Positions 25 to 57,782 of a stretch of 64,000 nt of DNA are shown in pieces. A program made the translations under genes and the position numbers. The number at the start of each line of letters is the position of its first letter. The stretch's first letter is position 1. The notes beneath the pieces were generated by a model. The model worked only from the letters and a program-made list of their open reading frames with translations, did not search any database and had not been told where the DNA came from. The stretch covers positions 2,167,001 through 2,231,000 of the forward strand of contig NZ_CP042464.1 of NCBI RefSeq assembly GCF_015074785.1, given 5' to 3'. This DNA is from Segatella copri. Its GTDB lineage: Bacteria > Bacteroidota > Bacteroidia > Bacteroidales > Bacteroidaceae.

Positions 25-1444
25 GTTTCAATCCACACACCCACGAAGGGTGTGACGATAGTTTTGCGTGCTTACCACGTAAGCGGCTCAGTTTCAATCC
101 ACACACCCACGAAGGGTGTGACAACATATTCTTGCATGTTGCCGTCTGTAACCTTTGTTTCAATCCACACACCCACGAAGGGTGTGACGTAATATTGATT
201 ATGTTTCGCCTTCTGACAATATGTTTCAATCCACACACCCACGAAGGGTGTGACATGATTGATACATCGAATTTCCGCTCTCAGTTTGTTTCAATCCACA
301 CACCCACGAAGGGTGTGACGGTGTTGCTGGTTCTTTACTTGGTGGTCTTTTTGGTTTCAATCCACACACCCACGAAGGGTGTGACATAACGCTGTATATC
401 ATTTGACATATTTTGACCCGTTTCAATCCACACACCCACGAAGGGTGTGACCTTGACTTGAACATTCAGCAAAATGAGTGGTCTTTGTTTCAATCCACAC
501 ACCCACGAAGGGTGTGACCCATACGCTCTTACCGTCTGCTTAAATAGTTAAAGTTTCAATCCACACACCCACGAAGGGTGTGACAAAGCGAAGATACGCT
601 GACATTCGGCAACCAGTACGTTTCAATCCACACACCCACGAAGGGTGTGACTTATCACGGTGTGCGGTCAAGACCTCCCGAACTTGTTTCAATCCACACA
701 CCCACGAAGGGTGTGACCTGTGCGATGGCTTCCTGCTGCTTTGGCTTTTTGTTTCAATCCACACACCCACGAAGGGTGTGACGCGATGCCGTTCAACTTG
801 GTTTTGAGTGCTGTCGTGTTTCAATCCACACACCCACGAAGGGTGTGACGGTCGTTTGCGACTTGAAAACCTCGGGCAAGGAGTTTCAATCCACACACCC
901 ACGAAGGGTGTGACGTGATAATCTCGATAAACTTCTTCATACGCTCTGTTTCAATCCACACACCCACGAAGGGTGTGACCAGCCCACAAAATGTTCGTTC
1001 AAAGATGATAAAGGTTTCAATCCACACACCCACGAAGGGTGTGACAGAACACCGGTGAAATAATCTAAAGGCAAATTACTGTTTCAATCCACACACCCAC
1101 GAAGGGTGTGACACCGGCGGTCTTCTTTCTGGCATTGCCCAGAAAGTTTCAATCCACACACCCACGAAGGGTGTGACTCTGCTGCGTCTCAGATTGCTCA
1201 GTTTGCATTTCAGTTTCAATCCACACACCCACGAAGGGTGTGACAGCTAGCTGATACAAATCTCCGTTGGCTCGATAAGGTTTCAATCCACACACCCACG
1301 AAGGGTGTGACATAAAAGCTTTAGTCTTTTCAACCTTATCAGAAAGTTTCAATCCACACACCCACGAAGGGTGTGACAACCAGCACCAGCAATAGCAGCA
1401 GCACCTAAACCAGTTTCAATCCACACACCCACGAAGGGTGTGAC
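25..1444 (-). CRISPR. Type I-C CRISPR array, 22 repeats, truncated by window edge
   Basis: Twenty-two copies of a 32-nt repeat (plus strand begins GTTTCAATCC, ends GGGTGTGAC) start at 25, 91, 157, 223, 288, 354, 420, 487, 553, 620, 686, 751, 818, 883, 948, 1014, 1081, 1146, 1213, 1280, 1346 and 1413. All copies look identical, including the one at 1413 nearest the cas genes. The 21 complete spacers are 33-35 nt; a partial spacer (1-24) shows the array continues leftwards. Transcription is inferred to be leftward (minus strand), because the reverse complement ends TGGATTGAAAC, the usual I-C 3' end, and the leader and cas genes lie to the right on the same strand. In that sense the repeat folds with CACACCC/GGGTGTG around TTCGT; cleavage at the stem base would leave the 11-nt tag TGGATTGAAAC, as Cas5c does in studied I-C systems. 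I saw no spacer matching the rest of the window. Confidence 0.98.
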
Positions 1445-1619
1445 TGCATATTCAGCAAATAGCTGAATATCATGATGCAAAGATAATTATTTTGCGAAAG
1501 ATGGCAAAATAATTACACGTAAAATATTATAAAAGGCATAATATTTGTAAGTCACTGATTTTAAGAAGGTGCGAAACTATAGGTTATTTTGCAATACTAT
1601 AGGTTCGCACCCTCATACA
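1445..1619 (-). promoter_or_regulatory. CRISPR leader with pre-crRNA promoter and stacked inverted repeats
   Basis: This AT-rich 175-bp gap separates cas2 from the first repeat. On the minus strand it carries a Bacteroidota-type promoter: -33 TTG at 1507-1505 and -7 TATCTTTG at 1485-1478, 19 nt apart, firing into the array. It also holds perfect inverted repeats: 1448-1456/1462-1470 (9 bp), 1484-1495/1504-1515 (12 bp, spanning the -33 to -7 interval), 1522-1530/1538-1546 (9 bp) and 1568-1575/1604-1611 (8 bp). The role as leader and integration-guiding region is inference from position. Confidence 0.8.
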
Positions 1620-1910
1620 TTAAATGATAAGCTCACCAGTAAAGTCAAGCCCCATATCCTTACCCAAAGTCTCGACTTTACGTTTCCAATTTTTCCCAAG
1701 AATATAGAACCTAATACTATCTTGTTCAGTATCAATAATCCCTTTCAACTGGTCCCTCAATACGAAAAACTGAGATTCCGTCAAAATACACTCAAAAACA
1801 GAGTTTTGAACTCTCTTTCCGTAATTCAAACACGCCCTTGCTACATTGCGTAAACGTTTCGCACCATGAGCCGAGGTAATGTTTACATCATAAGTAATCA
1901 ATACAAACAT
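1620..1910 (-). CDS. cas2: CRISPR-associated endoribonuclease-fold protein Cas2 (type I-C)
   Basis: This 96-residue protein has the size and fold signature of Cas2: an N-terminal beta strand LITYDV with the conserved Asp at residue 8, then a helix rich in Arg/Lys and NSVFEC in the second strand. Cas2 dimers bridge two Cas1 dimers in the adaptation complex that inserts new spacers next to the leader. The gene starts three bases after the cas1 stop codon, so it is the last gene of the cas operon, and its own stop is about 175 bp from the first repeat. The start codon is ATG and the length is normal for the family. Nothing suggests damage. Confidence 0.96.
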   Translation of the reverse strand: MFVLITYDVNITSAHGAKRLRNVARACLNYGKRVQNSVFECILTESQFFVLRDQLKGIIDTEQDSIRFYILGKNWKRKVETLGKDMGLDFTGELII

Positions 1911-1913
1911 ACA

Positions 1914-2936
1914 CTACTTGATTAAAAACACTGGATAATCATCAATATCCTTACGAATGAATCTCGCCAACAACATTGCTTGAACATAAGGAAGAAGACC
2001 TATACTTACCTTTTCATTTAAATAAGGATGAATAATCTGCTCCTTCTTTCTGTTTTGCCAAGCAGACAATATAATCTTACGCCCCGAGTCTGTCATGACG
2101 ATACCTTCGTCACCCTGCTTGATGAAATCTTTGATGGTAATCTGTTTTCTGTTGATTAAAGATAGAACCAATCTATCACCCAAATATGCTCGCAGCTCCT
2201 CCATCATATCCAAAGATAAAGATGCACGCCCTGGTCTTAAAGTATGCATAAACCCTACGTATGGGTCTAAGCCAACAGTCTCCAAAGCCGATGTCATATC
2301 ATTACATATAAGAGTATATACGAAAGATAACATCGCATTAATCGCATCTTTTGGTGGTCGACGATTGCGACCTTCAAATACAAAATCTTCTTTCTGATTT
2401 AGAAGAAGACGTGAGAATACACCAAAATAAGCAGTGGCAGCTTCTCCTTCTATTCCTCTCACACTATCTATAGATTCAGCATTCAAAACTCTTCTTTTGC
2501 ACCGAAGCAGTTCCTCGCAAACACGTTCTATAGCCTCATCATCTCCATTGTCTCTAATAAAACGACGCAAGATATTACGATAGTTTTGGATTTTTCCTCC
2601 TATGAAAAGTTTACTGAGATGAAGAGCATAGTTAGGTTCATCAGAATTCTTATATTGTGCTTTTCTCAGCAAAACGTTTCCCCTAGTCGGACCTTGCGAA
2701 CGGCTGATATATCTTCCTTGAGGTGAAAGGAAGGTTAGAGAAACATTATTATCTGCACACAGTTTCATCAATCCTGGACTTGCCCCCATATAACCAAAAG
2801 TAATAATTTGCTCTATATTATGGATAGGAATACGGAATATCTCGTTTTGCTTCACAGATATCACAACATTCAACCCATCTTTACTTAGATAGGCTTCAGG
2901 TGTGGTCACGTATAATGTATTAAGTAATATCCTCAT
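1914..2936 (-). CDS. cas1: CRISPR integrase Cas1 (type I-C)
   Basis: The 340-residue product is a full-length Cas1, the metal-dependent integrase that joins pre-spacers to the leader-repeat junction together with Cas2. The N-terminal beta domain (about 1-80) is followed by the all-helical catalytic domain. The GIEGEAA motif places the first metal ligand at Glu163, His231 sits in FMHTLRPGRASL, and the acidic LDMMEE run (243-247) supplies the third ligand. The gene overlaps the end of cas4 by 17 bp and lies three bases before cas2, so cas4, cas1 and cas2 form a translationally coupled adaptation module. Type I-C assignment follows from the whole operon. No missing catalytic residue was seen. 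Confidence 0.97.
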   Translation of the reverse strand: MRILLNTLYVTTPEAYLSKDGLNVVISVKQNEIFRIPIHNIEQIITFGYMGASPGLMKLCADNNVSLTFLSPQGRYISRSQGPTRGNVLLRKAQYKNSDEPNYALHLSKLFIGGKIQNYRNILRRFIRDNGDDEAIERVCEELLRCKRRVLNAESIDSVRGIEGEAATAYFGVFSRLLLNQKEDFVFEGRNRRPPKDAINAMLSFVYTLICNDMTSALETVGLDPYVGFMHTLRPGRASLSLDMMEELRAYLGDRLVLSLINRKQITIKDFIKQGDEGIVMTDSGRKIILSAWQNRKKEQIIHPYLNEKVSIGLLPYVQAMLLARFIRKDIDDYPVFLIK

Positions 2937-3591
2937 ATAGATTCTTGTTTAAATAGGTTGATACTAGAGTACAATCACTCATTTCTGGCATACAGAGATT
3001 TACCAGAGAACAATTCTTACAATGATGCTGTTTGTTAGCTTTTGGCAAGATACCGCTTTTAAATACCTCATGCATCTGAAGGGCACATTGAATAGTCGTA
3101 CTTCTTAATGACTCAGAAATAGAAATTGTTTCTCTATGTTTTACTTCATCATAATACAATGCACCGTATGGAATATGGATACCATACATTTCTTCGAGAC
3201 ACATTGCCTGGGCAGCCAATTGTACTTCATCTCTTTCATCAGGCTTATGATGACCTCTTTTATACTCCACAGGGTATGGTTTCCAATATCCTTTGTAGCG
3301 ATTATGAGTTATAGCATCTTCTGAAGAATCAGTTGGAACAAGTTCTACTGCATCAGTTATACCATACAATCCTAATTCTTTAGAGGCAATATGGAGGGAG
3401 CGAAGTGTGATAACATCACCATTTTTCTGACGATAGAAGGGATTATCTACGTTCTTGTGTAGAATCTGCCCTTCTGTCGTTAGTTTATTTTCTGCCCATT
3501 GTTGCTCGATATGAATCAAAGCCCATTGTCGAGGGCAGAACATAAAGTGCTGTATCCCCGACAACATGAGCATTTCGTCTTCAGTATACAT
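2920..3591 (-). CDS. cas4: CRISPR adaptation nuclease Cas4 (type I-C)
   Basis: The 223-residue protein is a RecB-type PD-(D/E)xK nuclease with an iron-sulfur cluster; Cas4 trims pre-spacers and selects the PAM end in I-C systems. Cys19 near the N terminus and Cys191, Cys194 and Cys200 near the C terminus form the expected one-plus-three cluster. The nuclease core shows Asp80 in GITDAVE, Glu109 and Lys111 in PVEYKRG, and Gln124 in the following helix (VQLAAQAMCLEE). The gene begins seven bases after cas7 ends and overlaps cas1 by 17 bp. It is intact and of normal size, so the adaptation arm of this locus looks functional. Confidence 0.97.
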   Translation of the reverse strand: MYTEDEMLMLSGIQHFMFCPRQWALIHIEQQWAENKLTTEGQILHKNVDNPFYRQKNGDVITLRSLHIASKELGLYGITDAVELVPTDSSEDAITHNRYKGYWKPYPVEYKRGHHKPDERDEVQLAAQAMCLEEMYGIHIPYGALYYDEVKHRETISISESLRSTTIQCALQMHEVFKSGILPKANKQHHCKNCSLVNLCMPEMSDCTLVSTYLNKNLYEDIT

Positions 3592-3598
3592 GATGATA

Positions 3599-4462
3599 CT
3601 AAATCAATTCTTCAACTGTTACACCGCTAGGGACAGAGTCCATATCTATTGTAACCTTATAATCGTTAAACGATCTTGGTACCGCATCCGGATTCGTATC
3701 AGGATTTCTCTCAATTTTCACCAAATCAAACAATTTATTCGCTGGAGCATTACCCAGAACAGAATCATGTTTGAACACGATTAATTTCTGAGCACTCATC
3801 AAGCCCCTTGCTGCAGAACGGTCAACATCAAACATGTTCTTCAATGCATCAAAGAATAGTTGAAGATCATCCTCTGAAAAACCTGTTTGCTTTGCAAGAT
3901 TAGCAGAGATAAAACCATGACAAACATAGAGACCATAAGGGACAGTTGCTTTGCGGCCCATAGTTCTGTTGTCACCTTTCTGCTTTTCTGCTTCATTTTC
4001 TGTAGCTACCGCCATTCGAGTAATAGAATGTTCAGCAGTTGCAATTGAATCTACAGAGCGAGCAAATGTAAGCTGAATAGGACCTCTTACCTGTCCTGCA
4101 TTCTTTCCTGTAGACATTACAGCACCAAAAGTACGAATATCATAATAGTTCTTGCACATAAATAAACGAGCTGCTGCCGTTTTGTCTTTTGCGCTCTTGA
4201 CTTCTGAGTCATCATGTGCCTTATCTATCTCATTGTTGAGAACGGCCTTCTCCTTGATAAAAATATCATACCCATCAGCCAGACTTTTTGCTACCTGCAC
4301 ATAGTTGCGCACCTTACGCTTCAAGCACACATCAGTAACTAAGCCCATACCTGTTTCTGCATCCACACGAGGAAGATTACCTGCATCTGGGTCTCCATTA
4401 GGATTACCATCCTGAACATCAAAAATGTACACGAAATCAATTTTATTTTTTAATTCAGCCAT
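3599..4462 (-). CDS. cas7c: Cascade backbone subunit Cas7 (Csd2, type I-C)
   Basis: This 287-residue RAMP-superfamily protein matches the Csd2 family. The start [20 protein letters not shown] followed by a stretch rich in Gly, Pro and Asp and 'LPRVDAETG' is typical of the first strand and loop of Cas7. About seven copies line the crRNA in I-C Cascade and bind target DNA. The gene sits between cas8c (28-bp gap) and cas4 (7-bp gap) on the minus strand. Length is normal and no frame damage was seen. In Cascade, Cas7 acts with Cas5c and Cas8c. Confidence 0.95.
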
Positions 4463-4489
4463 AATATTTATTTTTTAAACGTTAATATT

Positions 4490-6238
4490 TTAATCTTTAT
4501 TCTCTTCCTCTTTCTTCGTAAAGAATTCTTGTTTCTGATGATAGTATCCAATAAAGAATCTACCCTGGTCTTGAAGATCAAGATGTGCAGGGAAACCTGT
4601 TGCAGGAATCTTATCCATAATCTCCTGCTTCATCTTCTCAAAGAAGATTTTCTTACCCTGATTCGACAACTTCTCCATGTGATGTGAAGAAAGATTAAGA
4701 ATTGTAGCAAACACTGAAGCTGGTGTTGCACTGGCAGCATTCATATATCTTTCACGTATGCTGCTACCTCCATTTGCATCTACTTGAATCTTATCAAGAA
4801 CTGCAAAAAGACGACCACATAAGTAGCCTTGATTAGTGTTACTTTTGTCCAACATAATTTCTATTTTTTTATTATTACTACTTGTTCTATTGAGATATGC
4901 CTTGATGATTGCCATACGAGCAATACGAATTGCATCTTTGCTGCCAGCCTCTGCTCTTATTCTGCGAATGCATGCAGAAAATAAAGTGAATGGATATGGT
5001 GTTCCTTGGAAGATACTTTTGACAATAGCTTCAGGAAGATTAGGGGTAGCTTCAGACTGTTTCCCGTTAAGAGTGACAGCTGAAAGCATACTCTTGATTC
5101 CCATATATGGTTTCTTATCATTACGAGTATCTTTGATTTCCATATCTTTAAAATGACACAATATCTTTCCTGCAAATTCTTTCAGAGAACATTCCGACCA
5201 ATATACAACGGCTATTCTAGCCGAATTTGGAGCAAGTCCAAGTATATAGAAGCGGTCTTCTAATGATGTTTTCAAACTTCCAGAATATATAGCCGTAAAC
5301 ACTTTGCGCACTTGCTCTATCTTAGCATTTGGATCATCAACCTCTTCTTCAGTATATCCCAACAGGTCAAAGAGGCTACCTTCAGTCTGTTCTGCTGCCT
5401 CGCTGTTAGAGGACGCCCAAAAAATAAATGAACGATCGCCAATTCGGAACTTATTTCGAGAATTCTTTGATAATAGTTTCAATAAAGCCGTAGTATATTT
5501 AAACTCAGCTTCTTCTGATATAGGCGCATTTAGCCCCATTTTCTTTCCATAAGAATCATAGCCAGAATTAACCTGGAAAGCAACAAGTTTAGCATTGCTC
5601 TTTCCTCCCAAGATGAACGAACTATAAGTCGTATTAACAGGCTTTTCCTTTACTCCTGTTATAAGACAGACAGCCTTCTTGTTTTCGTTTGACTTACTCC
5701 GTTTCTTTACTTGAAGAATTTCATTGTCACTAGCTGCATATCCATTTATTCCTATCACGCTGAATGTTATATTTTTTGCAAGATACTTACAGAAATCACC
5801 CCAATGCGAATCATGTTTAATAGCATTGATTGTTTCCAAACTAAACTTTTTATAGAAAGCATGTATAGCCTGCACAAAACTATTATCCGGCAAGATATTA
5901 AAAAAGTTTTCTACATCTTTTTTAAAAGCAGTCAAAGTTTTCTCATTTCGAGTCATTTCTTTAGCATAATCAAAATTGTCTTTTGCTTTTACTTCTTTTA
6001 AGCCTAAAATATAACCAGCATGATCTCCCATACAATGCGGTACTGGAGCTGACGTACGCTCTTCTGGACGAAACGTCAGAAGCGGCAAACCACTATCGCC
6101 TCCTAAAGGTTCAAGACGTATGAAATTTCCTTTCTCATCTAAAACAATAGAATAATAAAAATCAACATACGCCATATCCATAGGAACGATATCATCACCG
6201 CATCTATTATAATAGTCATATAATGCTTTTAGTATCAT
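4490..6238 (-). CDS. cas8c: Cascade large subunit Cas8c (Csd1, type I-C)
   Basis: The 582-residue protein is the type I-C signature subunit Csd1/Cas8c, which recognises the PAM, starts R-loop formation and docks Cas3. The beginning, MILKALYDYYNRCGDD followed by YVDFYYSIVLDEKGNF, and the later FIFWASSN and FYILGLAPNSARIAV stretches are characteristic of the family. In studied I-C systems a small subunit (Cas11c) is made from an internal start in the 3' part of cas8c; the C-terminal helical part here is long enough for that, but this is inference. Its ATG overlaps the stop of cas5c by four bases, so the two are translationally coupled. The length is usual. Confidence 0.94.
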   Translation of the reverse strand: MILKALYDYYNRCGDDIVPMDMAYVDFYYSIVLDEKGNFIRLEPLGGDSGLPLLTFRPEERTSAPVPHCMGDHAGYILGLKEVKAKDNFDYAKEMTRNEKTLTAFKKDVENFFNILPDNSFVQAIHAFYKKFSLETINAIKHDSHWGDFCKYLAKNITFSVIGINGYAASDNEILQVKKRSKSNENKKAVCLITGVKEKPVNTTYSSFILGGKSNAKLVAFQVNSGYDSYGKKMGLNAPISEEAEFKYTTALLKLLSKNSRNKFRIGDRSFIFWASSNSEAAEQTEGSLFDLLGYTEEEVDDPNAKIEQVRKVFTAIYSGSLKTSLEDRFYILGLAPNSARIAVVYWSECSLKEFAGKILCHFKDMEIKDTRNDKKPYMGIKSMLSAVTLNGKQSEATPNLPEAIVKSIFQGTPYPFTLFSACIRRIRAEAGSKDAIRIARMAIIKAYLNRTSSNNKKIEIMLDKSNTNQGYLCGRLFAVLDKIQVDANGGSSIRERYMNAASATPASVFATILNLSSHHMEKLSNQGKKIFFEKMKQEIMDKIPATGFPAHLDLQDQGRFFIGYYHQKQEFFTKKEEENKD

Positions 6239-6927
6239 TTTAAAATCTCCTCACTATTAATTGGTGGAACAATAATTATGCCATCTTTCATCTGTGGACG
6301 ATAGAACATTGGCTGGATATTCTTCTTATCAGCAAAGTCCATATCATAGAGCATGATTCCTAAGTCTTTAGTACCACCTTGCTCTTCAGATATTGGTGGA
6401 GTCAATGTATCATCATCAGGATTAACGAGACGGAAAGAGGCAGAGAACTCACGAGTACCAAGATAAGGCTGATTGAAACATTGTCCCTTGCTTGCTCTAC
6501 GCTCAAACATCTGATAATACTTCATCGGATTCTCATCTTTACCCGGCTCATGAGAAAACAAATCTCCTTCTGCCTTTCGCTTCAATACAGAACGGAACTC
6601 CATCTTTGCCCAAATTCGATAACCAACATCTTTTAAAAGCAAAGTATTTTTCTGCTGACGTTTTTCCTCTATAAAGATGACAGATTTACCAGCTACCGCC
6701 CCCACCTCATTTCTTCTTACAGAAGTCCATTTGATAGGTTTCAACACCTCTATCTTGGTTATCTGCCAATGAATGGCAGGCTTCCAAAATATAGCCTCGA
6801 ATATAGCTCGTGCTGCTGATGGTGTAATCACATCATAGCTTACACGTTCAACTTTCAGTTCGGGTCTTGTGAAACAAGCCATATCGCCCCACACCTCCAA
6901 ACAATATTCTTTATCAGTATATTCCAT
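6235..6927 (-). CDS. cas5c: crRNA-processing Cascade subunit Cas5c (Cas5d)
   Basis: The 230-residue protein belongs to the type I-C Cas5 family, which replaces Cas6: it cuts pre-crRNA at the base of the repeat hairpin and then stays on the 5' handle. Family features seen are LEVWGDMACFTRPELKVER at the N terminus, the PSAARAIFEAIFWKP helix and IKWTSVRRNEVG near residue 70. It fits the repeat structure, which predicts an 11-nt handle. The gene lies 12 bp after the cas3 helicase gene and overlaps cas8c by four bases. Which Tyr/Lys/His residues are catalytic cannot be assigned safely from this sequence alone. Confidence 0.95.
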   Translation of the reverse strand: MEYTDKEYCLEVWGDMACFTRPELKVERVSYDVITPSAARAIFEAIFWKPAIHWQITKIEVLKPIKWTSVRRNEVGAVAGKSVIFIEEKRQQKNTLLLKDVGYRIWAKMEFRSVLKRKAEGDLFSHEPGKDENPMKYYQMFERRASKGQCFNQPYLGTREFSASFRLVNPDDDTLTPPISEEQGGTKDLGIMLYDMDFADKKNIQPMFYRPQMKDGIIIVPPINSEEILK

Positions 6928-6939: not shown

Positions 6940-8439
6940 TTATTGTATTAATACTTCATTTGCCCAATTATTATCGATGCACAAGCCTATATGTTCATCA
7001 TACTGCTGTTTATAATCGACAACAAAGAGTCCCTCTTTTTTCTCACTAATGACACCCATATCTAACAAAGTTTTAAAGTCTGTCTTAGTGATATTTACAA
7101 TATACTTCGACAGTTTCCTTATCAGCATATATGAAGGTCCCTTTTCCAATAGCTGTTGTATAAGCTCGAAACTATTTCTCCAACAGACAACAACATTGAT
7201 ACCATTATCTTCAATCATCTGAAACTCTTTTGCAGCAGTAGCAAAACATATTTCCTTAGGATTATAAAGATAATGCTTCATATTCTTTACATCGAAACAT
7301 TCCTTTCTGCAATATAATTGCTTGAAATATGATGTCATCACATCTGGAGCAAGCCAATCTATCCCTGTACCAAGACTTAATCTTGCATTATTTGCAGCCT
7401 GCATTTCTCCTTTAGGAAGATTATGCTCTTTAGACAAAGAAAAGACATAAGTAGTACTCAAACCATTCTTTCCTTCTCGATTACATCGGCCGGCAGCTTG
7501 CAATACAGAGTCAAGTCCTGCCTCTTGCCTATATACAATAGGAAAATCTATATCAACTCCAGCTTCTATCAATTGCGTTGAGACTACACGGATAACTTCA
7601 TTCGTATCGTCCTTTAGAGCTTTTTTGAGCTTTTCTAACGTCTCGCTAATATGTGCCGGACACATCATCTTTGAAAGATGTAATGTAACACCCTCTTGCG
7701 GCAAACGTGTATAGAGTTCTCTAGCATCACGACGTGTATTCACAATACAAAGCACTCTTTTATGCTTGATTAACATCTCAGCAACCTCATCATACGTTCT
7801 TCCTTCGTTATTGATACTTAACTTTACCCTTCGCAACTTGTCATGCAAATTAAACTCTCGAGGAATGATTTCAGTAATATGGTCAATGCCTTTGAAGGCT
7901 GCCTTCGGATTACATCCTTCTATAAGTCCACTTAACACGGGTTGACTTGCCGTAGTGAACAAGAAAGAAACATTGAATAGTTTATGATACGTTTTCAATG
8001 AATCCACAACAGGCTGAAGATAGTCCATCGGAAGCATCTGAACCTCATCTAAGATTACTACACTATTGACTATATTGTGAAGCTTCCTACAAACAGATGG
8101 CTTATTGCTAAACATAGACTCAAATAATTGCACATTGGTTGTAACAATTATCGGATAGTCCCAATTTTCTGTTGCCAACTTCATTTTTTCCTGAAGTCTT
8201 TCATCTTTGATTTGCTCAGGATCTACATTACTATGATGCTCCAAAACATTCTCTTCTCCAAAGATGCTTCGTAGAACAGATGCCGTCTGAACAATGATAC
8301 TTGTATATGGAATGGCTATAATAATTTTTTTCTGACCATTTCTGATAGCATGCTTCATTGCCCATACCAAAGAAGATAAAGTTTTTCCTCCACCAGTTGG
8401 TACCGTCAAACTATAAAAACCTATTTCTGTATCCGACAT
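6940..8439 (-). CDS. cas3: Cas3 helicase part (SF2), separated from its HD domain
   Basis: This 499-residue protein is the superfamily 2 helicase part of type I Cas3, which unwinds target DNA after recruitment by Cascade. Motif I LTVPTGGGKT lies only at residues 11-20, motif II is DEVQ (131-134), motif III is in FTTASQP (161-167) and motif VI is QAAGRCNREGK (314-324). In typical I-C Cas3 (about 750-800 residues) roughly a hundred or more residues of HD-domain end and linker precede motif I; here there are ten. The ATG follows the stop of the HD gene after one base (TAA-A-ATG), so reinitiation could couple the two. The helicase core looks complete. The short N terminus suggests a deletion fused the two ends and split the gene. 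Confidence 0.9.
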   Translation of the reverse strand: MSDTEIGFYSLTVPTGGGKTLSSLVWAMKHAIRNGQKKIIIAIPYTSIIVQTASVLRSIFGEENVLEHHSNVDPEQIKDERLQEKMKLATENWDYPIIVTTNVQLFESMFSNKPSVCRKLHNIVNSVVILDEVQMLPMDYLQPVVDSLKTYHKLFNVSFLFTTASQPVLSGLIEGCNPKAAFKGIDHITEIIPREFNLHDKLRRVKLSINNEGRTYDEVAEMLIKHKRVLCIVNTRRDARELYTRLPQEGVTLHLSKMMCPAHISETLEKLKKALKDDTNEVIRVVSTQLIEAGVDIDFPIVYRQEAGLDSVLQAAGRCNREGKNGLSTTYVFSLSKEHNLPKGEMQAANNARLSLGTGIDWLAPDVMTSYFKQLYCRKECFDVKNMKHYLYNPKEICFATAAKEFQMIEDNGINVVVCWRNSFELIQQLLEKGPSYMLIRKLSKYIVNITKTDFKTLLDMGVISEKKEGLFVVDYKQQYDEHIGLCIDNNWANEVLIQ

Positions 8440-8440
8440 T

Positions 8441-8815
8441 TTAATACATTGCTTCTATTTCATCATAGTCATGTAAGCCTGTATGATGAGACACTATTTG
8501 ATTAACAAAGAAAATATCAGCTGATTTACCATAAAGTCTTCGTGCCAAAACTCCACCAATAAATGCATGGTTATAATTACCACAAACTTTAATATCAGGC
8601 TCATATCCACTCTCTTTTTTAATATGTTGCTGAAAAGCTTGTGATTCCTTACCCTTATCATGAAGCAGCCCTAAAACTTTTCCCCATTCACTCATGCCAA
8701 AATCACCGGCAAAACGAGAAGCGAGCCTAGCTACACCAACAGAATGTTCTTCATTAGATTGTATAATCCAATGACCTGAATAATTTTGATATATATGTGA
8801 TATTAATTCTGCCAT
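8441..8815 (-). CDS. Cas3 HD nuclease part (Cas3''), short
   Basis: The product (124 residues from ATG 8815; the frame extends ten codons upstream to a TTG, judged less likely) is the HD phosphohydrolase domain of Cas3, the nuclease that nicks and degrades target DNA. Seen in order are His24 in NEEHSVGVARLA, His52-Asp53 in LGLLHDKGK, His83 in YNHAFIGG and His110-His111 in VSHHTGL. The protein stops fourteen residues after the HH motif. The last part of the HD fold, which in other Cas3 proteins carries a further metal-binding Asp (SxLVDADxLDTE type) and the linker to the helicase, is absent from both this gene and its neighbour. Nuclease activity is therefore doubtful. First gene of the cas operon. 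Confidence 0.85.
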   Translation of the reverse strand: MAELISHIYQNYSGHWIIQSNEEHSVGVARLASRFAGDFGMSEWGKVLGLLHDKGKESQAFQQHIKKESGYEPDIKVCGNYNHAFIGGVLARRLYGKSADIFFVNQIVSHHTGLHDYDEIEAMY

Positions 8816-8927: not shown

Positions 8928-9338
8928 CTATTTAGAATCAAAATCAATCTGTTTTAACAGTTTCCATCTTCCTGTACGTGGAGCACCAACACGACAAATC
9001 ATATCAGCCTTTTGCAATATAGAAAGTTCTCGTTCTATGGTGCGTTGAGGGATTCCCGACATTACCGCCATTTGTTTGGCGGTAATATCGAAATGCTTTG
9101 CTATGAAAGAAAGGATAATCTGCTGACGATAAGTAAGTTTCATTACCGCCACATTACCGCCACTATTACCGCCATCTCCGACATTTACACCGACATCCCC
9201 GCCACGCTCTGCGATAACTTCGTCTATCGTCTTGCGCTGAACAATCGCCATCACTCCACCTCCATTTTCTTCTATCGTTGGCAATGGCAAGCATGCACGT
9301 TCAAACTCCTCGGCAATCTTCTTGAAACCACGTCCCAT
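8928..9338 (-). pseudogene. 3' remnant of an AlbA_2/Schlafen-type ATP-binding regulator
   Basis: The 136 residues look like only the C-terminal end of a much larger ATP-binding protein (AlbA_2 domain plus HATPase_c_4 type, often called RecG-like). It starts inside the signature MGRGFKKIAEEFERACLPLP, which in complete relatives lies some 350 residues from the N terminus, and ends with a winged-helix domain (AKQMAVMSGIPQRTIEREL). The complete relative at 11617-13095 shows the same order (GSGMKKI, then a linker, then a winged helix). No upstream part remains: the next gene starts 41 bp away. A short DNA-binding protein could still be made, but a truncated relic is the simpler reading. Codons for a Gly/Val/Asn-rich linker lie at residues 45-65. 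Confidence 0.75.
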
Positions 9339-11616: not shown

Positions 11617-13095
11617 ATGAACATAAATGAGTTAATAGGCGAAGCAACCGCCTACGATAAGAAGCAACAACTCGAAGTCAAGAGACCTAAGAGCTGGCTA
11701 AAAAGTGTTTCAGCCTTTGCCAATGGTGAGGGCGGAACATTGGTGTTTGGTATCAGTGACGACGACCAAGTGGTAGGACTTGCTGATGCAGAAAGTGACG
11801 CAGAGAGAATAAGTGAGGAGATAAAGACCAAACTTGACCCTATACCTGCCGTCAACCTCGAATTTAAGGAGGTGGACGGCAAGAAGCTTGTGCTGCTTCA
11901 TGTCTATAAAGGACAAGAGACACCATATTATTATATAGGTGACAAACAACGATTGGCATTTGTGAGAGTCGGTAACGAGTCAGTGGTAGCTGACAGACTT
12001 CAATTGAAGAACCTTGTTATGAGAGGTGCTGGTCGTTCGTTTGATGCTATCCCATCACCATACAAGTTTGAGGATATGTCTTTCTCCAAACTCAAATCTG
12101 TTCATTTTAAGCGATTGAACCAATCGTTTGATGATAGTGATTTCGTTTCATGGGGAATAGTTGACATTGACGGGAAACTAACCAATGCCGGTACATTATT
12201 GGCAGATGATTCCCCTATACGCCATTCTCGTATCTTCTGCACACGTTGGAATGGACTTGACATGACGAGTGGTTTGGGGGAGGCTTTGGATGATGCCGAA
12301 TTGGAAGGTAGTGTCATCAGTCAATTGCAAGATGCAGTTGCTTTTGTGAGAAACAATTCTCACAGAAGATGGTGGAAAGAAGCTGAGTATCGAGAAGAAC
12401 TGCCAGATTATCCTGAGCGTGCCGTAACCGAAGTGATATGTAATGCCATCATTCATAGAGATTATATGGAACTTGGCAGTGAGATACACATAGATATGTA
12501 TGACGACCGCATGGAAGTGTATTCCCCTGGTGGCATGTTTGATGGACGATTGATACAACAACTTAATCCTCTGACTGTGCCATCGAAACGTCGCAATCCT
12601 TTATTGGCAGATTTCTTTCATCGCTTGAAACTGATGGAGCGTAGAGGTAGTGGCATGAAAAAGATAATTGGTGAGTATAAGCGTTTTGAAAACTTGGAAA
12701 ATTATCACGCACCAGAGTTTAGTTCCAATGCAACAGAATTTCATGTTACTCTATGGAACCTCAATTATGGGGAGGATGTCGTAAAAGACAACCTTCATGT
12801 CGTAAAAGAGACGGATGATGTCGTAAAAGATGTCGTAAAAGATGTCGTAAAAGAAAAAGCAAATGCTACAAAAGAATTTGTTAAAGCACAACGGCAAATT
12901 TATAAGTTGATTTCGCAGATGCCCCAAATCAGTGCTGCGCAAATGTCAGAGAACATGGGGATTTCTTTGCGACAAGTGCAACGATACCTCAAGCAACTTT
13001 CCGACCAAAACCTAATTGTAAGAGAAGGTAGTCGCAAAAATGGCATTTGGAAAATCTTGGACGATGAATACGAAGGCTTCTTCAAAAGAATATAA
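11617..13095 (+). CDS. AlbA_2/Schlafen-type ATP-binding protein with winged-helix C terminus
   Basis: The 492-residue protein has an N-terminal AlbA_2 (Schlafen) domain (about 1-130, with EVKRPKSWLKSVSAFANGEGGTLVFGISDD-like order), an ATPase-like HATPase_c_4 region around 265-375 (AVTEVICNAIIHRDY, GGMFDGRL, MERRGSGMKKI), a Val-Val-Lys-Asp repeat linker (about 388-412) and a C-terminal winged helix (SAAQMSENMGISLRQVQRYLKQL). These proteins are predicted transcription regulators, often in defence or mobile contexts; function here is unproven. It is complete. A shorter relative, reduced to the C-terminal end, lies at 8928-9338, and an Abi_C remnant directly precedes it. Confidence 0.85.
   Translation: MNINELIGEATAYDKKQQLEVKRPKSWLKSVSAFANGEGGTLVFGISDDDQVVGLADAESDAERISEEIKTKLDPIPAVNLEFKEVDGKKLVLLHVYKGQETPYYYIGDKQRLAFVRVGNESVVADRLQLKNLVMRGAGRSFDAIPSPYKFEDMSFSKLKSVHFKRLNQSFDDSDFVSWGIVDIDGKLTNAGTLLADDSPIRHSRIFCTRWNGLDMTSGLGEALDDAELEGSVISQLQDAVAFVRNNSHRRWWKEAEYREELPDYPERAVTEVICNAIIHRDYMELGSEIHIDMYDDRMEVYSPGGMFDGRLIQQLNPLTVPSKRRNPLLADFFHRLKLMERRGSGMKKIIGEYKRFENLENYHAPEFSSNATEFHVTLWNLNYGEDVVKDNLHVVKETDDVVKDVVKDVVKEKANATKEFVKAQRQIYKLISQMPQISAAQMSENMGISLRQVQRYLKQLSDQNLIVREGSRKNGIWKILDDEYEGFFKRI
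12775..12852 (+). repeat. 12-bp in-frame repeats (GATGTCGTAAAA) in the linker of the AlbA_2 gene
   Basis: Three perfect tandem copies of GATGTCGTAAAA occupy 12817-12852, with a further perfect copy at 12775-12786 and a one-base variant at 12796-12807. Each unit codes for four residues (Asp-Val-Val-Lys), so copy-number change would keep the frame and only alter linker length. Confidence 0.9.
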
Positions 13096-13207: not shown

Positions 13208-14476
13208 TTAGTTGCTATAAGCACTCTCACCATGCTCGTAGATGTCGAGACCTTCCTCCTCTACTCGCTTGTCAACACGTACTCCTACACTCTTATCTAC
13301 TACCTTGAAGATAATATAGGTAACTACGATGCTGTAGATGATGCTTACCACGGTGGCTACCACCTGAATCCAAAGCTGATGCCAGTCGCCATAGAGAGCA
13401 CCCTGCACGCCTTCGGCACCTGTTACGTATCTTGTGGCGAATACACCGGTGAGGACTGATCCCAGAATACCACCCATACCATGAACACCAAAGGCATCAA
13501 GGGCATCATCATACTTGAACTTCTCCTTCACCACTGCTACCATGAAGAAGCAGACGATGGTGGAAATGATACCGATGCAGAAAGCTCCGAAAATATCGGA
13601 ACTGCCGGCTGCAGGAGTGATGGCTACCAGTCCGGCAACAGCACCGGTACAAGCACCTACCGTAGTTGGCTTCTTGTTCACAATCCAGTCGATGAGCATC
13701 CAGGTAGTGGCTGCCGCTGCTGTTGCGATATGGGTTACAAGGAAGGCGTTGGCTGCCAGACCATCAGCTGCCAATCCGCTACCGGCATTGAAGCCGAACC
13801 ATCCCAACCAGAGGAATGACATACCCATGAACACGAAGGTGATGTTGTGAGGTGTGATAGGATGACCCGCACGGTAATCATCACGCTTGCCTACACAGAG
13901 TGCCATGACCAGAGCGGCTACACCGGCATTGATATGTACCACGGTACCACCCGCAAAGTCGATGGCTCCCATCTCCTGCAGGAAACCGCCGCCCCATACC
14001 CAGTGAGCCATAGGAAGATAAGCGATGATAACCCAGAGGATGGTGAAAAGTACATAACCGCTGAACTTCACACGCTCGGCAAAAGCACCGAGAATCAAGG
14101 CTGGAGTAATGAGGGCGAACATGCACTGGAACATTGCAAAGGTGAGTTCCGGAATACCTGTAGGCATGATGGCATCCAAGCCGATGCCGTGGAGGAAACA
14201 TTTATCGAAACCACCGATGACGCAAGCCAGAGGATTGCCCGAATCGGCATATTCTGTAGAGAAAGCCCAGGAATAACCGAAGGCTACCCATATCAGACTG
14301 ACTACTGCCACAATGAAAACCGTCTGCATCAGGATGCTGAGAATATTCTTCTGGCGCACCAAACCACCATAAAAAAGTGCTATACCCGGGATTGACATCA
14401 AAAGTACCAAGATGGTGGCCATGATCATCCACGCTGTGTTACCCGTATCAAGTGTAGTTAATAATAAACTGCTCAT
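13208..14476 (-). CDS. amtB: Ammonium transporter AmtB
   Basis: The 422-residue membrane protein is an Amt/Rh channel that takes up ammonium across the inner membrane. It starts with TAWMIMATILVLLMSIPGIALFYGGLVR, has the family's eleven or so hydrophobic segments, and shows both members of the pore His pair: one in GGTVVHINAGVAALV and one in FGVHGMGGILGS. The gene lies about 100 bp downstream of glnK on the same strand, the reverse of the common glnK-amtB order only in reading from the map: glnK is transcribed first. AmtB is normally plugged by GlnK when nitrogen is plentiful. Length and ends are normal. Confidence 0.96.
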   Translation of the reverse strand: MSSLLLTTLDTGNTAWMIMATILVLLMSIPGIALFYGGLVRQKNILSILMQTVFIVAVVSLIWVAFGYSWAFSTEYADSGNPLACVIGGFDKCFLHGIGLDAIMPTGIPELTFAMFQCMFALITPALILGAFAERVKFSGYVLFTILWVIIAYLPMAHWVWGGGFLQEMGAIDFAGGTVVHINAGVAALVMALCVGKRDDYRAGHPITPHNITFVFMGMSFLWLGWFGFNAGSGLAADGLAANAFLVTHIATAAAATTWMLIDWIVNKKPTTVGACTGAVAGLVAITPAAGSSDIFGAFCIGIISTIVCFFMVAVVKEKFKYDDALDAFGVHGMGGILGSVLTGVFATRYVTGAEGVQGALYGDWHQLWIQVVATVVSIIYSIVVTYIIFKVVDKSVGVRVDKRVEEEGLDIYEHGESAYSN

Positions 14477-14577
14477 ACTTATATCTTATAGTTAAATTAG
14501 AATACTAAATAATATTTATTAAAGATAAGTAAGAATGCCTAATTCAACATTCAACACTTAACATTCAACATTTTAAA

Positions 14578-14934
14578 TTATTCCTCTTTCTCAGCGTTAT
14601 ACAATGCGATGTCGCCTCGCTCGCCAGTTCTGATTCTAACGGTATCGAGTACAGGAATCACGAAGATTCTGCCGTCTCCGACTTCACCGGTCTGTGCAGC
14701 GCCCTGGATGGCGGCGATGGTAGGTTCCACGTTCTTATCACGAACCACAATATTCAGAAGCACACGTTCGATGCTGCTGGTATCGTACATCACACCACGG
14801 TAAATGCGAGCCTGGCGCATTTTTCCCTCTCCTCTTACATTATAATAAGAGAACCACTCGATGTCTGCTGCTAAAAGTGCCTTCTTGACATCCTCGAATC
14901 TTGACTTGCGGATAATTGCCTCAATCTTCTTCAT
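14578..14934 (-). CDS. glnK: PII nitrogen regulatory protein (GlnK/GlnB type)
   Basis: The 118-residue protein is a PII signal protein, a trimer that senses 2-oxoglutarate and ATP/ADP and binds partners such as AmtB. It begins MKKIEAIIRKSRFEDVKKAL and carries a T-loop region RGEGKMRQARIYRGVMYDTS (about 34-53), which departs from the proteobacterial T-loop sequence, and the C-terminal GDGRIFVIPVLDTVRIRTGERG block for nucleotide binding. Linkage to amtB supports the GlnK role. Tyr45 and Tyr50 lie in the T-loop; whether either is modified is unknown. The gap to amtB contains AACATTCAAC-type repeats (14542-14571). Confidence 0.94.
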   Translation of the reverse strand: MKKIEAIIRKSRFEDVKKALLAADIEWFSYYNVRGEGKMRQARIYRGVMYDTSSIERVLLNIVVRDKNVEPTIAAIQGAAQTGEVGDGRIFVIPVLDTVRIRTGERGDIALYNAEKEE

Positions 14935-15153
14935 AATCCTTTAATAATTAATAATGTGTTAATACTTCTATTGATTGTCTCTTTTCGAAAACGGACCCTC
15001 ATTGGTTGTTATCCAAACTAAGCCTTTCTTTTGCATTATGTTCGTTTTCGGCTGCAAAATTAATACATTTTGTCAGTATTTTAAAGAATAACTAAGCATT
15101 TCGCTTTTATTTTTTATCGAATATTTTAAATTTATCCGGGCTTATCGCATTCT

Positions 15154-15201
15154 CCTTACAATTTGTAAGGCAGAAAGCGTTTTTATAACACAAATTGTAA
15201 G
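15154..15201. promoter_or_regulatory. Palindromic operator-like sites between glnK and dapF
   Basis: CCTTACAATTTGTAAGG (15154-15170) is itself a palindrome, and its half CTTACAATTTGT recurs inverted and perfect as ACAAATTGTAAG at 15190-15201. Each is followed by AGAAAGCG/GAAAGCG. It lies in the 454-bp divergent gap between glnK and dapF, upstream of the dapF promoter. A regulator-binding role is inferred. Confidence 0.5.
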
Positions 15202-15238
15202 AAAGCGAAAAATAATCAAGATTTCTGCATCTATTTTC

Positions 15239-15269
15239 TTGCATATTTCAACAAATCGTCGTACCTTTG
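15239..15269 (+). promoter_or_regulatory. Promoter of the dapF-dapL-glnN cluster
   Basis: TTG at 15239-15241 and TACCTTTG at 15262-15269 are 20 nt apart, an exact Bacteroidota promoter; dapF starts 120 bp downstream. The leader RNA contains AGAAAGAGATAAGACATGAGAGATAAA-like purine-rich sequence but no recognised riboswitch. Confidence 0.8.
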
Positions 15270-15388
15270 CAACCGAAATCAAACAAATAGTCATCGAAAT
15301 ATTCGAAAGACTAGCAAAAAGTCAAATCTCAAAAGAGATAAGACATGAGAGATAAAAGAAGAGTATTCAAACATAAAGAACAACGCAG

Positions 15389-16234
15389 ATGAAAGAAACA
15401 GTTCATTTTACAAAGATGCAGGGAGCGGGTAACGATTACATATATGTAGATACCCAACAATACGACATCCCTGACCCAGAGAAGGCTGCCATTGCCTGGA
15501 GTGCTTATCACACGGGCATAGGAAGCGATGGACTGGTTCTCATCGGAAAGCCGCACGACGGCAGAAGAGCAGATTATTCGATGCGCATCTTCAACGCCGA
15601 TGGTTCAGAAGCGATGATGTGCGGCAATGCAAGCCGATGCATCGGTAAGTATCTTTACGAAAAAGGATTGACCCGAAAGGACACCATCCGACTGGAAACA
15701 CTTTCGGGTATCAAGATATTGAAACTTCATCTTCAGGATAATAAGAAAGTTGTGGAATCGGTAACAGTAGACATGCTGGAACCCAAACTTGAAAATCCCG
15801 AGCAATTCATAGGCCCTTCGGTTCTCGAAGCTGACGGCAGAAAATTTGAAGGCACCTATGTTTGTATGGGTAATCCGCATTTCGTTACCTTCGTGGATGA
15901 CATCGACACCATCGACATCGCCCACTATGGTAAAATCCTGGAAAGAGACAAGGCATTTCCCCAGAGATGCAACATAGAATTTGCACAAGTAACTGACACA
16001 GACGCCATAAGGACACGAGTTTGGGAAAGGGGAAGCGGAATAACAATGGCTTGCGGAACAGGAGCCTGTGCCACAGCCGTAGCCGCAGCCCTTACCAAGC
16101 GTACTGGCAGAAAAAGCAGTATCGTGATGGATGGCGGAACGCTGGAAATAGAATATAGCGAGGCTGATGATCATGTTTACATGACAGGGCCTGCAGCCTT
16201 CTCATTCGAAGGAGAAATTCAGTTGGAGTGTTGA
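15389..16234 (+). CDS. dapF: Diaminopimelate epimerase
   Basis: The 281-residue enzyme converts LL-diaminopimelate to meso-diaminopimelate in the cytoplasm, for peptidoglycan and lysine. The two catalytic cysteines are Cys78 in [10 protein letters not shown] and Cys222 in [11 protein letters not shown]; the substrate-binding [11 protein letters not shown] block and the N-terminal [15 protein letters not shown] are typical. Start ATG fits the family. It is the first gene of a cluster with dapL, which makes its substrate, and glnN. A strong AACATTCAAC-type hairpin begins at its stop codon (16229-16299). Length is normal. Confidence 0.97.
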
Positions 16235-16299
16235 ATGTGGAATGTTGAATGTTGAATGTAGCTGCACCCACCAAGTCAACATTCAACATTCAACACTCA
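16229..16299 (+). repeat. AACATTCAAC-type repeats forming a hairpin between dapF and dapL
   Basis: Tandem GTTGAATG units (16229-16259) face complementary CAACATTC units (16277-16299) around an 18-nt loop, giving a long stem that overlaps the dapF stop codon. The same short motif recurs at 14542-14571, 17609-17640, 21458-21478 and, as TCAATGTTCAA, at 31969-31990. Confidence 0.8.
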
Positions 16300-16375
16300 A
16301 CATTAAAATTAGAAAGAACGCAAACTTAAATAACAAATGGTCGATAATGACCACAAATAAAAGGAGAAACAAAAT

Positions 16376-17608
16376 ATGGCATTAGTTAATGAACATTTCC
16401 TGAAGTTGGCCAACAACTACTTGTTTGCCGACATCGCAAAGAAGGTGAACGCCTACAAGATTGCACATCCAAAGCAGCGTGTAATCAGTCTGGGCATCGG
16501 TGATGTAACCCAGCCTCTCTGCCCTGCCGTCATCAAGGCGATGCACAAGGCTGTAGACGAGATGGCTGAGCAGGCTTCCTTCCGTGGCTACGGTCCGGAG
16601 CGAGGCTACGACTTCCTCCGAGAGGCTATCATCAAGAACGACTTCCTGCCACGTGGCATTCATCTTGACGCCAACGAGGTATTCGTAAACGATGGAGCCA
16701 AGAGCGATACGGGAAATATCCAGGAGATTTTGAGATGGGATAACAACATCGGCGTTACCGACCCGATTTATCCGGTTTATATAGACTCTAACGTGATGAT
16801 AGGTAGAGCCGGAGTCTTCGAGAACGGCAAGTGGAGCAATGTAACCTACATGCCTTGCGATGAGAGCGATGACTTCATCCCTCAGATTCCAGACCACCGT
16901 GTGGACATGATTTATCTCTGTTATCCAAACAACCCTACGGGTACGGTCATCTCGAAAGAAGAACTCAGAAAATGGGTAAACTATGCTATCAAGAACGAGA
17001 GCATCATCCTCTATGATGCAGCCTACGAGGCATATATCACCGACCCATCAATTCCTCATTCTATCTACGAGATTCGTGGAGCCAGAAAGGTAGCGATAGA
17101 ATTCCACAGTTATTCGAAGACTGCCGGATTCACCGGTGTGCGTTGTGGTTACACCATCGTTCCTAAGGAGTTGAAGGCAAAGACATTGGCTGGTGAGGAA
17201 GTGGCATTGAATCCTATCTGGGACCGCCGCCAGTGCACCAAGTTTAATGGTACAAGCTATATCAGCCAGCGTGCTGCCGAAGCCATCTACACCCCAGAGG
17301 GTAAGGAACAGGTGAAGGCAACCATCAATTACTATATGGAGAATGCCCACTTCATGAGAGCAGAACTCCAGAAGCTCGGCTTGAGAGTATATGGCGGCGA
17401 GAATGCACCTTATCTCTGGGTGAAGACGCCAAACAACACGCCAAGCTGGAAATTCTTCGAAGAGATGCTTTATGGTGCCAGCGTAGTCTGCACCCCTGGT
17501 GTCGGCTTCGGTCCATCAGGCGAAGGCTACATCCGTCTCACCGCCTTCGGCGAGCACGAGGACTGCAAGGAGGCCATGGAGAGAATTGCCAAATGGCTGG
17601 GAAAATAA
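16376..17608 (+). CDS. dapL: LL-diaminopimelate aminotransferase
   Basis: The 410-residue PLP enzyme makes LL-diaminopimelate from tetrahydrodipicolinate in one step, using glutamate as amino donor. PLP-binding Lys248 lies in FHSYSKTAGFTGVRCGY; GAKSDTGNIQEI and CYPNNPTGT are hallmark DapL segments. It follows dapF by 141 bp and precedes glnN by 44 bp, so the three genes form a plausible transcript that links DAP synthesis with glutamine synthesis. The length is usual and all family motifs are present. With ddh at 63004, the genome has two ways to make meso-DAP. Confidence 0.97.
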   Translation: MALVNEHFLKLANNYLFADIAKKVNAYKIAHPKQRVISLGIGDVTQPLCPAVIKAMHKAVDEMAEQASFRGYGPERGYDFLREAIIKNDFLPRGIHLDANEVFVNDGAKSDTGNIQEILRWDNNIGVTDPIYPVYIDSNVMIGRAGVFENGKWSNVTYMPCDESDDFIPQIPDHRVDMIYLCYPNNPTGTVISKEELRKWVNYAIKNESIILYDAAYEAYITDPSIPHSIYEIRGARKVAIEFHSYSKTAGFTGVRCGYTIVPKELKAKTLAGEEVALNPIWDRRQCTKFNGTSYISQRAAEAIYTPEGKEQVKATINYYMENAHFMRAELQKLGLRVYGGENAPYLWVKTPNNTPSWKFFEEMLYGASVVCTPGVGFGPSGEGYIRLTAFGEHEDCKEAMERIAKWLGK

Positions 17609-17652
17609 TTCAACACTTAACATTGAACATTAAACATTTAAAAATATAAGGT

Positions 17653-37466: not shown

Positions 37467-38425
37467 TGGACATGCTATCGCACGAGTATCCTGTCAAGGA
37501 TATCTGCAAGATGATGGGAGTAAGTCGGTCGGGGTATTACAAGTGGCTTAGAAGAGAGCCTTCATCCCGTGAGATCAATCGTGAGTTCATGGTGGGTGTG
37601 GTTGAGGACATACACTCGGAACACCCTACACATGGCTACAGGTGGGTGGCGGCGTACATAAGAATCAATTTACAGTTGAGTATCAGCGACAATTTCTCTT
37701 ATAAATGCTTCCAATATCTTGGTATTCAGTCACAAACGAGACACAAGATACATTACAAACCACGTAAGGTAAAGGATAAGTACCCCAACCTCATTTATTC
37801 CACGTGGGACACGGTAGACAGACCTCGACAAGTTATCGTCTCTGACATGACAGTCATCAAATACTCTTGGTTCTTCTTTGAGTTGACCATGTATTTCGAT
37901 GTCTTTACGAAAGAAATCCTAACGTGGCATGTGGCTGAGAGACGTGGACATAGAGACCAGTACATTGATGGGCTAAATGATGTCATCAACCTGTTGAAGG
38001 GCACAGATGAGCCAACTGTTCTTCATACGGACCAAGGTAGCGTGTATGCTTCGCTCGCCTATAATGAGCTGATAAAGGACACCTTGATTGTGAGGTCTAT
38101 GTCCAGGGCAGGAAAGCCTACAGACAACCCTGTGAACGAATCCCTCAACGGATGGATAAAAGAGGAATTGTTCATAGACTTCAAGATTGAGACATGTAAT
38201 TCAAGAGAGGAGTTCGAGGAGGCCTTGGACGCATACGTGGATTATTACAATGAGAAAAGACCATGTTATGCTATCGGCTATGATACGCCAAATAATTACA
38301 GGAAGAGGTTTTATAAAGGGGAGCTTCCAAGAAAGGACACTTTTGGGAAGCGAGAGGCTAATGCAACACCGAAGTTCATCACAGAACGGAAGAAAATGGC
38401 TGGAAATGAGAAAAATAAAGAATAA
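37466..38425 (+). CDS. IS3-family OrfB transposase, DDE type
   Basis: This part has an rve integrase domain with catalytic Asp127 (VIVSDMTV), Asp189 (LHTDQGSVY) and Glu225 (NPVNESLNGW). As written it begins at a GTG (37466), 319 residues, but the natural product is likely OrfAB, made by -1 frameshift on A9 at 37389. It starts with an IS150-type HTH_21 segment (MGVSRSGYYKWLRRE). Complete, no stops; the element may be active. Confidence 0.92.
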   Translation: MDMLSHEYPVKDICKMMGVSRSGYYKWLRREPSSREINREFMVGVVEDIHSEHPTHGYRWVAAYIRINLQLSISDNFSYKCFQYLGIQSQTRHKIHYKPRKVKDKYPNLIYSTWDTVDRPRQVIVSDMTVIKYSWFFFELTMYFDVFTKEILTWHVAERRGHRDQYIDGLNDVINLLKGTDEPTVLHTDQGSVYASLAYNELIKDTLIVRSMSRAGKPTDNPVNESLNGWIKEELFIDFKIETCNSREEFEEALDAYVDYYNEKRPCYAIGYDTPNNYRKRFYKGELPRKDTFGKREANATPKFITERKKMAGNEKNKE

Positions 38426-51527: not shown

Positions 51528-51596
51528 AATAAACTTGTTTTTGAGTTGTACAAATCCGCTTGCCGCATTGCGCCCTGCGCATGGCTCACGGGGTTT

Positions 51597-51652
51597 CAAA
51601 AGGGGATGCCCCTTTGCTCAAATGGGTGTTTTTAGCGGTGGCGTGCCACTGC
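51597..51652. other. Candidate oriT with two hairpins upstream of mobV
   Basis: The GC-rich 190-bp gap between mobV and the primase gene contains CAAAAGGGG-ATG-CCCCTTTG (51597-51616) and GCGGTGGC-GT-GCCACTGC (51635-51652). Hairpins next to a MobV relaxase gene are where its oriT usually lies. The nick site is not identified. Confidence 0.5.
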
Positions 51653-51717
51653 GTCAAGAAAACGCCCTATTGAGCTATGGCTTTTCCGTTCAGAATAGCC
51701 ATTGGAGCAGGAACCGC

Positions 51718-52668: not shown

Positions 52669-52755
52669 GTCTTACTGTGGATTAAGTGGTGTATGTATTT
52701 CTGATGAATTGTTGAAAATAGTATGTATTGGTATGATAACCAAAGGCTTATCTTC

Positions 52756-52943
52756 TCAACAAACTCTCAACAAATGGTTCTTTTCAACAAAATCACTGGG
52801 CAAAAGAGAAAGACAGGCATTAGCGGTCATGTTTTCTCTTTTCAACAGTCTCTTTCTTTTGTTGAGAGATTTGTTGAGAAAATGTTGAGCCTTAAATACT
52901 TGATATCCAACACTTCTTTCGTCATATTCAACAATTCAACAAA
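52756..52943. repeat. Iteron-like TCAACAAA octamers upstream of the primase gene (candidate oriV)
   Basis: Six perfect TCAACAAA octamers: direct at 52756, 52767, 52784 and 52936, inverted (TTTGTTGA) at 52858 and 52870, plus three near-copies (52842, 52883, 52928). Dense short repeats beside a replication gene are typical of element origins. Confidence 0.6.
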
Positions 52944-53047
52944 ATTATATGCTATTTAGCTTGTCCGTAAGCGGCTCCGCATTTATACCTTGCCCTTTAT
53001 CGTAAAAGTTCTTACCTTTGCACCATAATTTTAAAAGCAACGAAATT

Positions 53048-56788: not shown

Positions 56789-56822
56789 AATCTAACCTTT
56801 GTGAGTTGATAAATTAAAGTTG

Positions 56823-57776: not shown

Positions 57777-57782
57777 AAAGAT

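Follow-up and report, generated by a model that had tools for sequence, protein, structure and literature searches.

The question raised by this locus is whether a type I-C CRISPR-Cas system can still carry out interference when its cas3 gene is broken into two short pieces. The window (the whole stretch of DNA analysed, 64,000 nucleotides long) comes from a gut bacterium, Segatella copri-like, and harbors on its minus strand, in this order, cas3, cas5c, cas8c, cas7c, cas4, cas1, cas2, and a CRISPR array. The locus belongs to type I-C, as cas5c, cas8c/csd1, cas7c/csd2, cas4, cas1, cas2, and the array are all present, and it is otherwise intact. Two related S. copri loci are compared with it throughout, namely L004 (strain Indica, the best match among genome contigs, with a helicase 95% identical) and L001; in both of them cas3 is intact and codes for 727 residues in a single frame. 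The features of the locus are the following:

25 to 1444, minus strand (assigned from where cas2 lies and how the repeats are oriented): CRISPR array, 22 identical 32-nt repeats and 21 complete spacers.
1620 to 1910, minus strand: cas2, 96 aa, open.
1914 to 2936, minus strand: cas1, 340 aa, open.
2920 to 3591, minus strand: cas4, 223 aa, open.
3599 to 4462, minus strand: cas7c/csd2, 287 aa, open.
4490 to 6238, minus strand: cas8c/csd1, 582 aa, family matched over the full length, divergent from the 620-aa L004 allele.
6235 to 6927, minus strand: cas5c, 230 aa, open, equal in length to that of L004.
6940 to 8439, minus strand: helicase piece of Cas3, 499 aa (TIGR01587, 2.8e-39).
8441 to 8815, minus strand: HD piece of Cas3, 124 aa from the ATG at 8815 (134 aa from the TTG at 8845; TIGR01596, 2.1e-16).
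8452 to 8453, minus strand: deletion junction, with 302 nt absent compared to L001 and L004, followed at once by TAA, A, and ATG.

The initial annotation described a split and shortened Cas3, and the two pieces and the TAA-A-ATG junction are indeed there in the sequence. The early end of the HD piece also holds, although it falls 13 residues past the HH motif and not 14, as first counted: the piece ends in ...SHHTGLHDYDEIEAMY, with a stop codon that ends at 8441. The helicase piece begins with MSDTEIGFYSLTVPTGGGKT, its start codon being an internal Met of the intact Cas3; it reaches PTGGGKT from residue 14 and carries the Walker A, DEVQ, SQP, and QAAGRCNREG motifs. Hence, the one uninterrupted chain of HD and helicase expected of a functional I-C Cas3 is absent from the window. 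According to the alignment with L001 and L004, the breakpoints have only 2 nt of microhomology (AG) in common, and the gap corresponds to residues 123–224 of the L004 Cas3, that is, 102 codons touched, which agrees with the earlier estimate of about 100 missing residues. Since 302 leaves a remainder of two when divided by three, the frame shifts and the HD frame meets TAA at once; this, in turn, speaks for a frameshifting deletion rather than a tidy separation of domains. These data make it very probable that a recent frameshifting deletion of 302 nt, joined at 2 nt of microhomology, broke the cas3 gene of a normal S. copri-type I-C locus into an HD and a helicase fragment.

Both pieces have plausible starts, which counts against a loss of function, and coupled translation of the helicase piece at TAA-A-ATG is plausible. 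A programmed frameshift rejoining the two pieces was considered and dropped, since its product would still miss about 100 residues. No second cas3 was retrieved from the 64-kb window, where the only match was at chance level (E 0.63), so that a further copy, if there is one, would lie elsewhere in the genome. A single cas3 match was found in each of three genomes, two from S. copri and one from Prevotella sp. 885 (G001–G003).

We then checked the corresponding segment in related loci (80 kept out of 123 confirmed, from 141 pattern matches). In all 80, a same-frame, stop-free match spans at least 88 of the 102 lost residues, and in 79 the HD domain lies within the same match, which starts within the first 25 residues; the exception, L079, is at a contig end. 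The initial annotation had stated that Cas3 proteins of this family are one chain with an intervening stretch, and both parts of that statement are borne out here. A frame change near the C-terminus (L043) and an early end near a contig end (L072) were detected as well, neither of them at the junction of the window. Moreover, 31 of the 249 genus genomes that were sampled from a larger group gave a match at E ≤ 0.001, and the 17 with E < 1e-90 all harbor an open frame of 718–775 aa free of stops; the genome and locus sets overlap, because G001 is the genome of L004. Among the 120 homologues listed (7,999 scored), 114 have at least 680 aa.

The junction itself was not retrieved from any of 398 genus genomes (two mismatches allowed), from any of 107 fetched loci, or, as an exact match, from viral_contigs, and the terminal EIEAMY occurs in none of the 64 short HD proteins. 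Two of these 64 (P0005 and P0017) end near the same point; their contigs are short (at most 1,854 nt and 601 nt, respectively), so contig ends are the likely cause. Several other short HD proteins stop early at other points. Furthermore, two helicase-only proteins of 500 aa (P0097 and P0104), 82% identical, have this same internal Met as their start, and clusters with long contigs include several HD-only proteins; one of them, P0019, ends in ...SHHTGLHDSDEIKELRQI (longest contig 43,861 nt). Judging from these sequences, recurrent breakage of cas3 at other positions is conceivable, and contig ends may account for some of the cases. The same short split pair, which the initial annotation had named as refuting it if common in close relatives, was found in 0 of the 80 loci, and its junction in 0 of the 398 genomes; thus, the lesion of the window is seen only here, while the breakage of cas3 in general may recur.

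Weaker matches in two further genomes, G200 (locus L102) and G181, consist of frames of 124–125 aa in which the HD part alone is matched. In L102, positions 1474–1842 hold a Cas3-related HD-only frame of 122 aa, with no helicase match within 3.3 kb, and by eye it adjoins a WYL regulator-like gene; it is possibly what is left of a cas3 in a different genome of this genus.

A junction present in no other record searched is also what an assembly artefact or a mixed-strain chimera would leave, that is, a source cell with an intact cas3 whose 302 nt were lost in assembly. The mosaic-like identity to P0065 (89.6% for the HD piece and 96.8% for the helicase piece) points in the same direction, natural recombination being an equally good explanation of this difference. 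Regarding L004, its DNA matches the window not only across the cas genes but also, on the upstream side of cas3, across an XRE/ImmA-type regulator and the region 13208–19174, which presumably codes for an ammonium transporter, a P-II-like protein, and an aminotransferase, as recognised from their sequences; DNA identity is 92.8% over the HD part and 95.8% over the helicase and cas5c. Similarity to this locus carries on past both sides of the break, the cas gene order of this named strain, with its Cas3 intact at 727 aa, is identical to that of the window, and the 2 nt in common between the breakpoints are far under the usual assembly word length. We thus consider an artefact unlikely and a genuine deletion the better reading.

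As for what was lost, the missing span contains 25 of the 253 invariant columns in an alignment of 28 relatives. In the structural model of the L004 Cas3 (mean pLDDT only 68.2), it takes with it the helices 152–177, 180–187, and 192–209 and most of 214–229, which, judging from their position, would be the terminal part of the HD domain, the linker, and the helix that opens the helicase. On this model, the window would lack a last HD helix, a linker, and a helix ahead of Walker A, which a functional I-C Cas3 would need. In the Thermobifida fusca (T. fusca) Cas3, the Q-motif glutamine Q284 stands 24 residues ahead of the Walker A glycine G308, according to the available part of PMC5965380; by analogy with this spacing, the Q-motif region should fall within the lost part.

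The retained parts count against a loss of function. The available text of PMC11417383 gives six metal ligands for the N. lactamica I-C Cas3 (H8, H25, H52, D53, H118, and H119), and the HD piece keeps H7, H24, H52, D53, H110, and H111 as their counterparts. The claim that a further metal-binding Asp had been lost is therefore not upheld: such a residue coordinates metal in the T. thermophilus I-E enzyme (D205, in the portion of PMC5965380 consulted), whereas it is no ligand in the N. lactamica structure as described in PMC11417383, all six of whose ligands are matched by residues of the short HD piece. The later helicase motifs, from Walker A onward, are retained too. A fold is still predicted for the truncated HD (mean pLDDT 86.4; about 59 for the final 13 residues), and the best fold match of its model is the I-C Cas3 8zns (E 5.2e-05); such predictions do not show anything firm on stability or activity.

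In principle, these retained parts might act as a working two-polypeptide minimal Cas3, an HD nuclease and a helicase made as coupled separate chains and reassembling on Cascade. The TAA-A-ATG arrangement permits coupled translation, the pieces keep the six metal-ligand counterparts along with the helicase motifs starting at Walker A, the model of the truncated HD is that of a folded domain, and HD and helicase genes are separate in types I-A, I-B, and I-D, as far as the available part of PMC5965380 reports. Nevertheless, the deletion is frameshifting and removes 25 invariant residues, the junction is found in no relative searched, and the segment is present in 80 out of 80 loci, as well as in both solved I-C Cas3 sequences.

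The comparison with solved structures leads to the same point. The N. lactamica I-C Cas3 (PDB 8g9u and 8zns) is homologous across HD and helicase, with corresponding metal ligands in the part of its description available, and it is a single chain including the segment lost from the window; likewise, the intact Cas3 of L004 and L001 comes from the same locus, theirs being one chain of 727 aa and that of the window two chains minus 302 nt. The stand-alone helicase 7tr8, which we take to be a type I-A helicase chain, resembles the window in that HD and helicase are separate chains. It differs in having more sequence ahead of Walker A (about 25 residues before a point that the piece of the window reaches after 6) and in matching it weakly in sequence, the split of the window being a deletion within a fused gene. 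A genuine split of the type I-A kind would be conserved among relatives, and it was found in 0 of the 80 kept loci. The minimal two-piece Cas3 proposed by the initial annotation is thus not supported, and we regard it as extremely unlikely. Just as improbable is that the coupled fragments form a minimal Cas3 that would serve an intact I-C Cascade in trans, whether as a nickase or, perhaps, as a binding-only effector sustaining adaptation.

If cas3 was broken by the deletion, the HD fragment would be missing its last helix and be disconnected from the helicase, and the helicase fragment would be missing its first helix and the Q-motif region. With both parts damaged and separated, target DNA would be neither unwound nor degraded, and interference would be lost. 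This was one of the outcomes suggested at the outset, and it fits a frameshifting deletion of 302 nt that removed 25 invariant residues and has no like in any relative searched; on the sequence data, it is the likeliest outcome. Primed adaptation, which requires Cas3, would be lost as well. Cascade and Cas1–Cas2–Cas4 may still be made, since the helicase start lies one base past the stop and the downstream genes are in frame; the earlier reading of the adaptation and Cascade genes as intact agrees with the open frames of all the other cas genes. The remnant could then only bind targets, perhaps hindering transcription, or acquire spacers naively; persisting spacer uptake or crRNA-guided binding, as put forward in the initial annotation, is thus possible. 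In loci lacking Cas3, Cascade binds targets with no cutting, and transcription may be hindered, according to the available part of PMC8473940.

How old the break is can be approached through the retained sequence. Comparing the window with L004 gives a dN/dS of 0.18 for the HD and 0.13 for the helicase part (0.16 for cas5c, 0.03 for cas7c, 0.13 for cas4, 0.09 for cas1, and 0.40 for cas8c), and comparing it with L001 gives 0.15 and 0.20, respectively; each value combines the two lineages compared and does not single out the branch of the window. For the intact pair L001 and L004, it is 0.28 for the helicase and 0.77 for the HD, the latter on only eight changes. At the columns at least 99% conserved that the window retains, it has 2 unique changes, and 28 out of 113 relatives have at least 2; these substitutions give no sign of long decay. 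The low dN/dS values and the few odd residues suggest that most of the divergence arose with Cas3 intact and that the break is probably recent.

This bears on the possibility that the loss of Cas3 was selected, either turning the locus into a binding-only (silencing) device or disarming it against self-targeting. In its favor, all the remaining cas genes have open frames, dN/dS is 0.03–0.16 for cas5c, cas7c, cas4, and cas1 (0.40 for cas8c), and Cascade lacking Cas3 binds without cutting and may hinder transcription (PMC8473940, in the part available). However, the break is apparently too recent for the retention of the other cas genes to be a sign of selection. The spacers are relevant here, and those matched to phages are the following:

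255 to 486, minus strand: spacers 4–7, all four matching the Microviridae genome PV067919.1 with 90–97% identity.
652 to 685, minus strand: spacer 10, a 100% match to the gut phage record MT836763.1.

These matches imply that the lineage took up phage spacers, and the four consecutive spacers 4–7 look like an uptake burst from one phage. On the crRNA-sense strand, the three bases upstream of the protospacers are CTC, TAC, TTC, and TTC for spacers 4–7 and TTC for spacer 10; the type I-C PAM, 5'-TTC, is thus found at three of the five (spacers 6, 7, and 10). The four spacers nearest cas2 (18–21) have no exact protospacer in viral_contigs (0 out of 4), and recent adaptation could not be demonstrated from them. 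Bases 1–24 resemble part of a further spacer, so that the array appears to extend beyond the window.

Probing for self-targeting, the spacers gave no match in window positions 1501–64000 and one 16-nt match among the other loci examined; in G001–G003, the matches outside the presumed arrays are of only 18–30 nt (E 0.38–0.74). Self-targeting spacers were accordingly discarded, none being convincing in the window, in the loci compared, or in G001–G003. As the self-matches are not convincing and the five matched spacers point to phages, a selected loss of Cas3 is very unlikely, and a recent loss-of-function deletion remains the preferred reading.

I-C loci missing cas3 or other genes are already on record in the Bacillus cereus group, according to the accessible text of PMC7242445. 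Those loci too are inactivated by gene loss, some of them being devoid of cas3; in that text whole genes are lost, whereas the window has a single deletion internal to cas3. A literature search on truncated, split, or missing I-C Cas3 and on Prevotella copri I-C gave no report of this case among the matches listed. The window is a fresh instance of an ordinary, known kind of gene decay and a clear example of an I-C system most likely deprived of its killing step, with the Cascade and adaptation genes still open. Should the remnant have kept binding or adaptation, strains of this kind would be natural Cas3-minus controls with which to ask whether there is any value in the gut to binding by itself or to naive spacer uptake; if it has kept neither, this is the routine decay of a defence gene.

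Some other aspects of the region are worth reporting. The record MT836291.1 (L103), labelled 'Bacteriophage sp.', harbors an I-C array and the genes from cas2 to cas8c; it is 97.7% identical to window positions 1440–6225 (cas2 to cas8c) and has spacer 2 exactly in common, while nothing in the window matches its final 504 nt, which are joined within cas8. Judging from the sequence, this record looks chimeric. The cas8c gene (4490–6238) is far from the L004 allele (582 vs. 620 aa) although the adjoining cas genes are close, possibly as the result of a recombination mosaic.

Moreover, a 136-aa winged-helix (MarR_2-like) frame at 8928–9338, between cas3 and the XRE/ImmA gene, is missing from the same place in L004 and L001; this frame is perhaps the tail of a protein of the AlbA_2 type, resembling the one at 11617–13095. 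Lastly, the regions 37472–38425 and 50163–61012 contain, by eye, transposase-, mobilisation protein-, primase-, and integrase-like frames, which suggests insertion sequences and an integrated mobile element.
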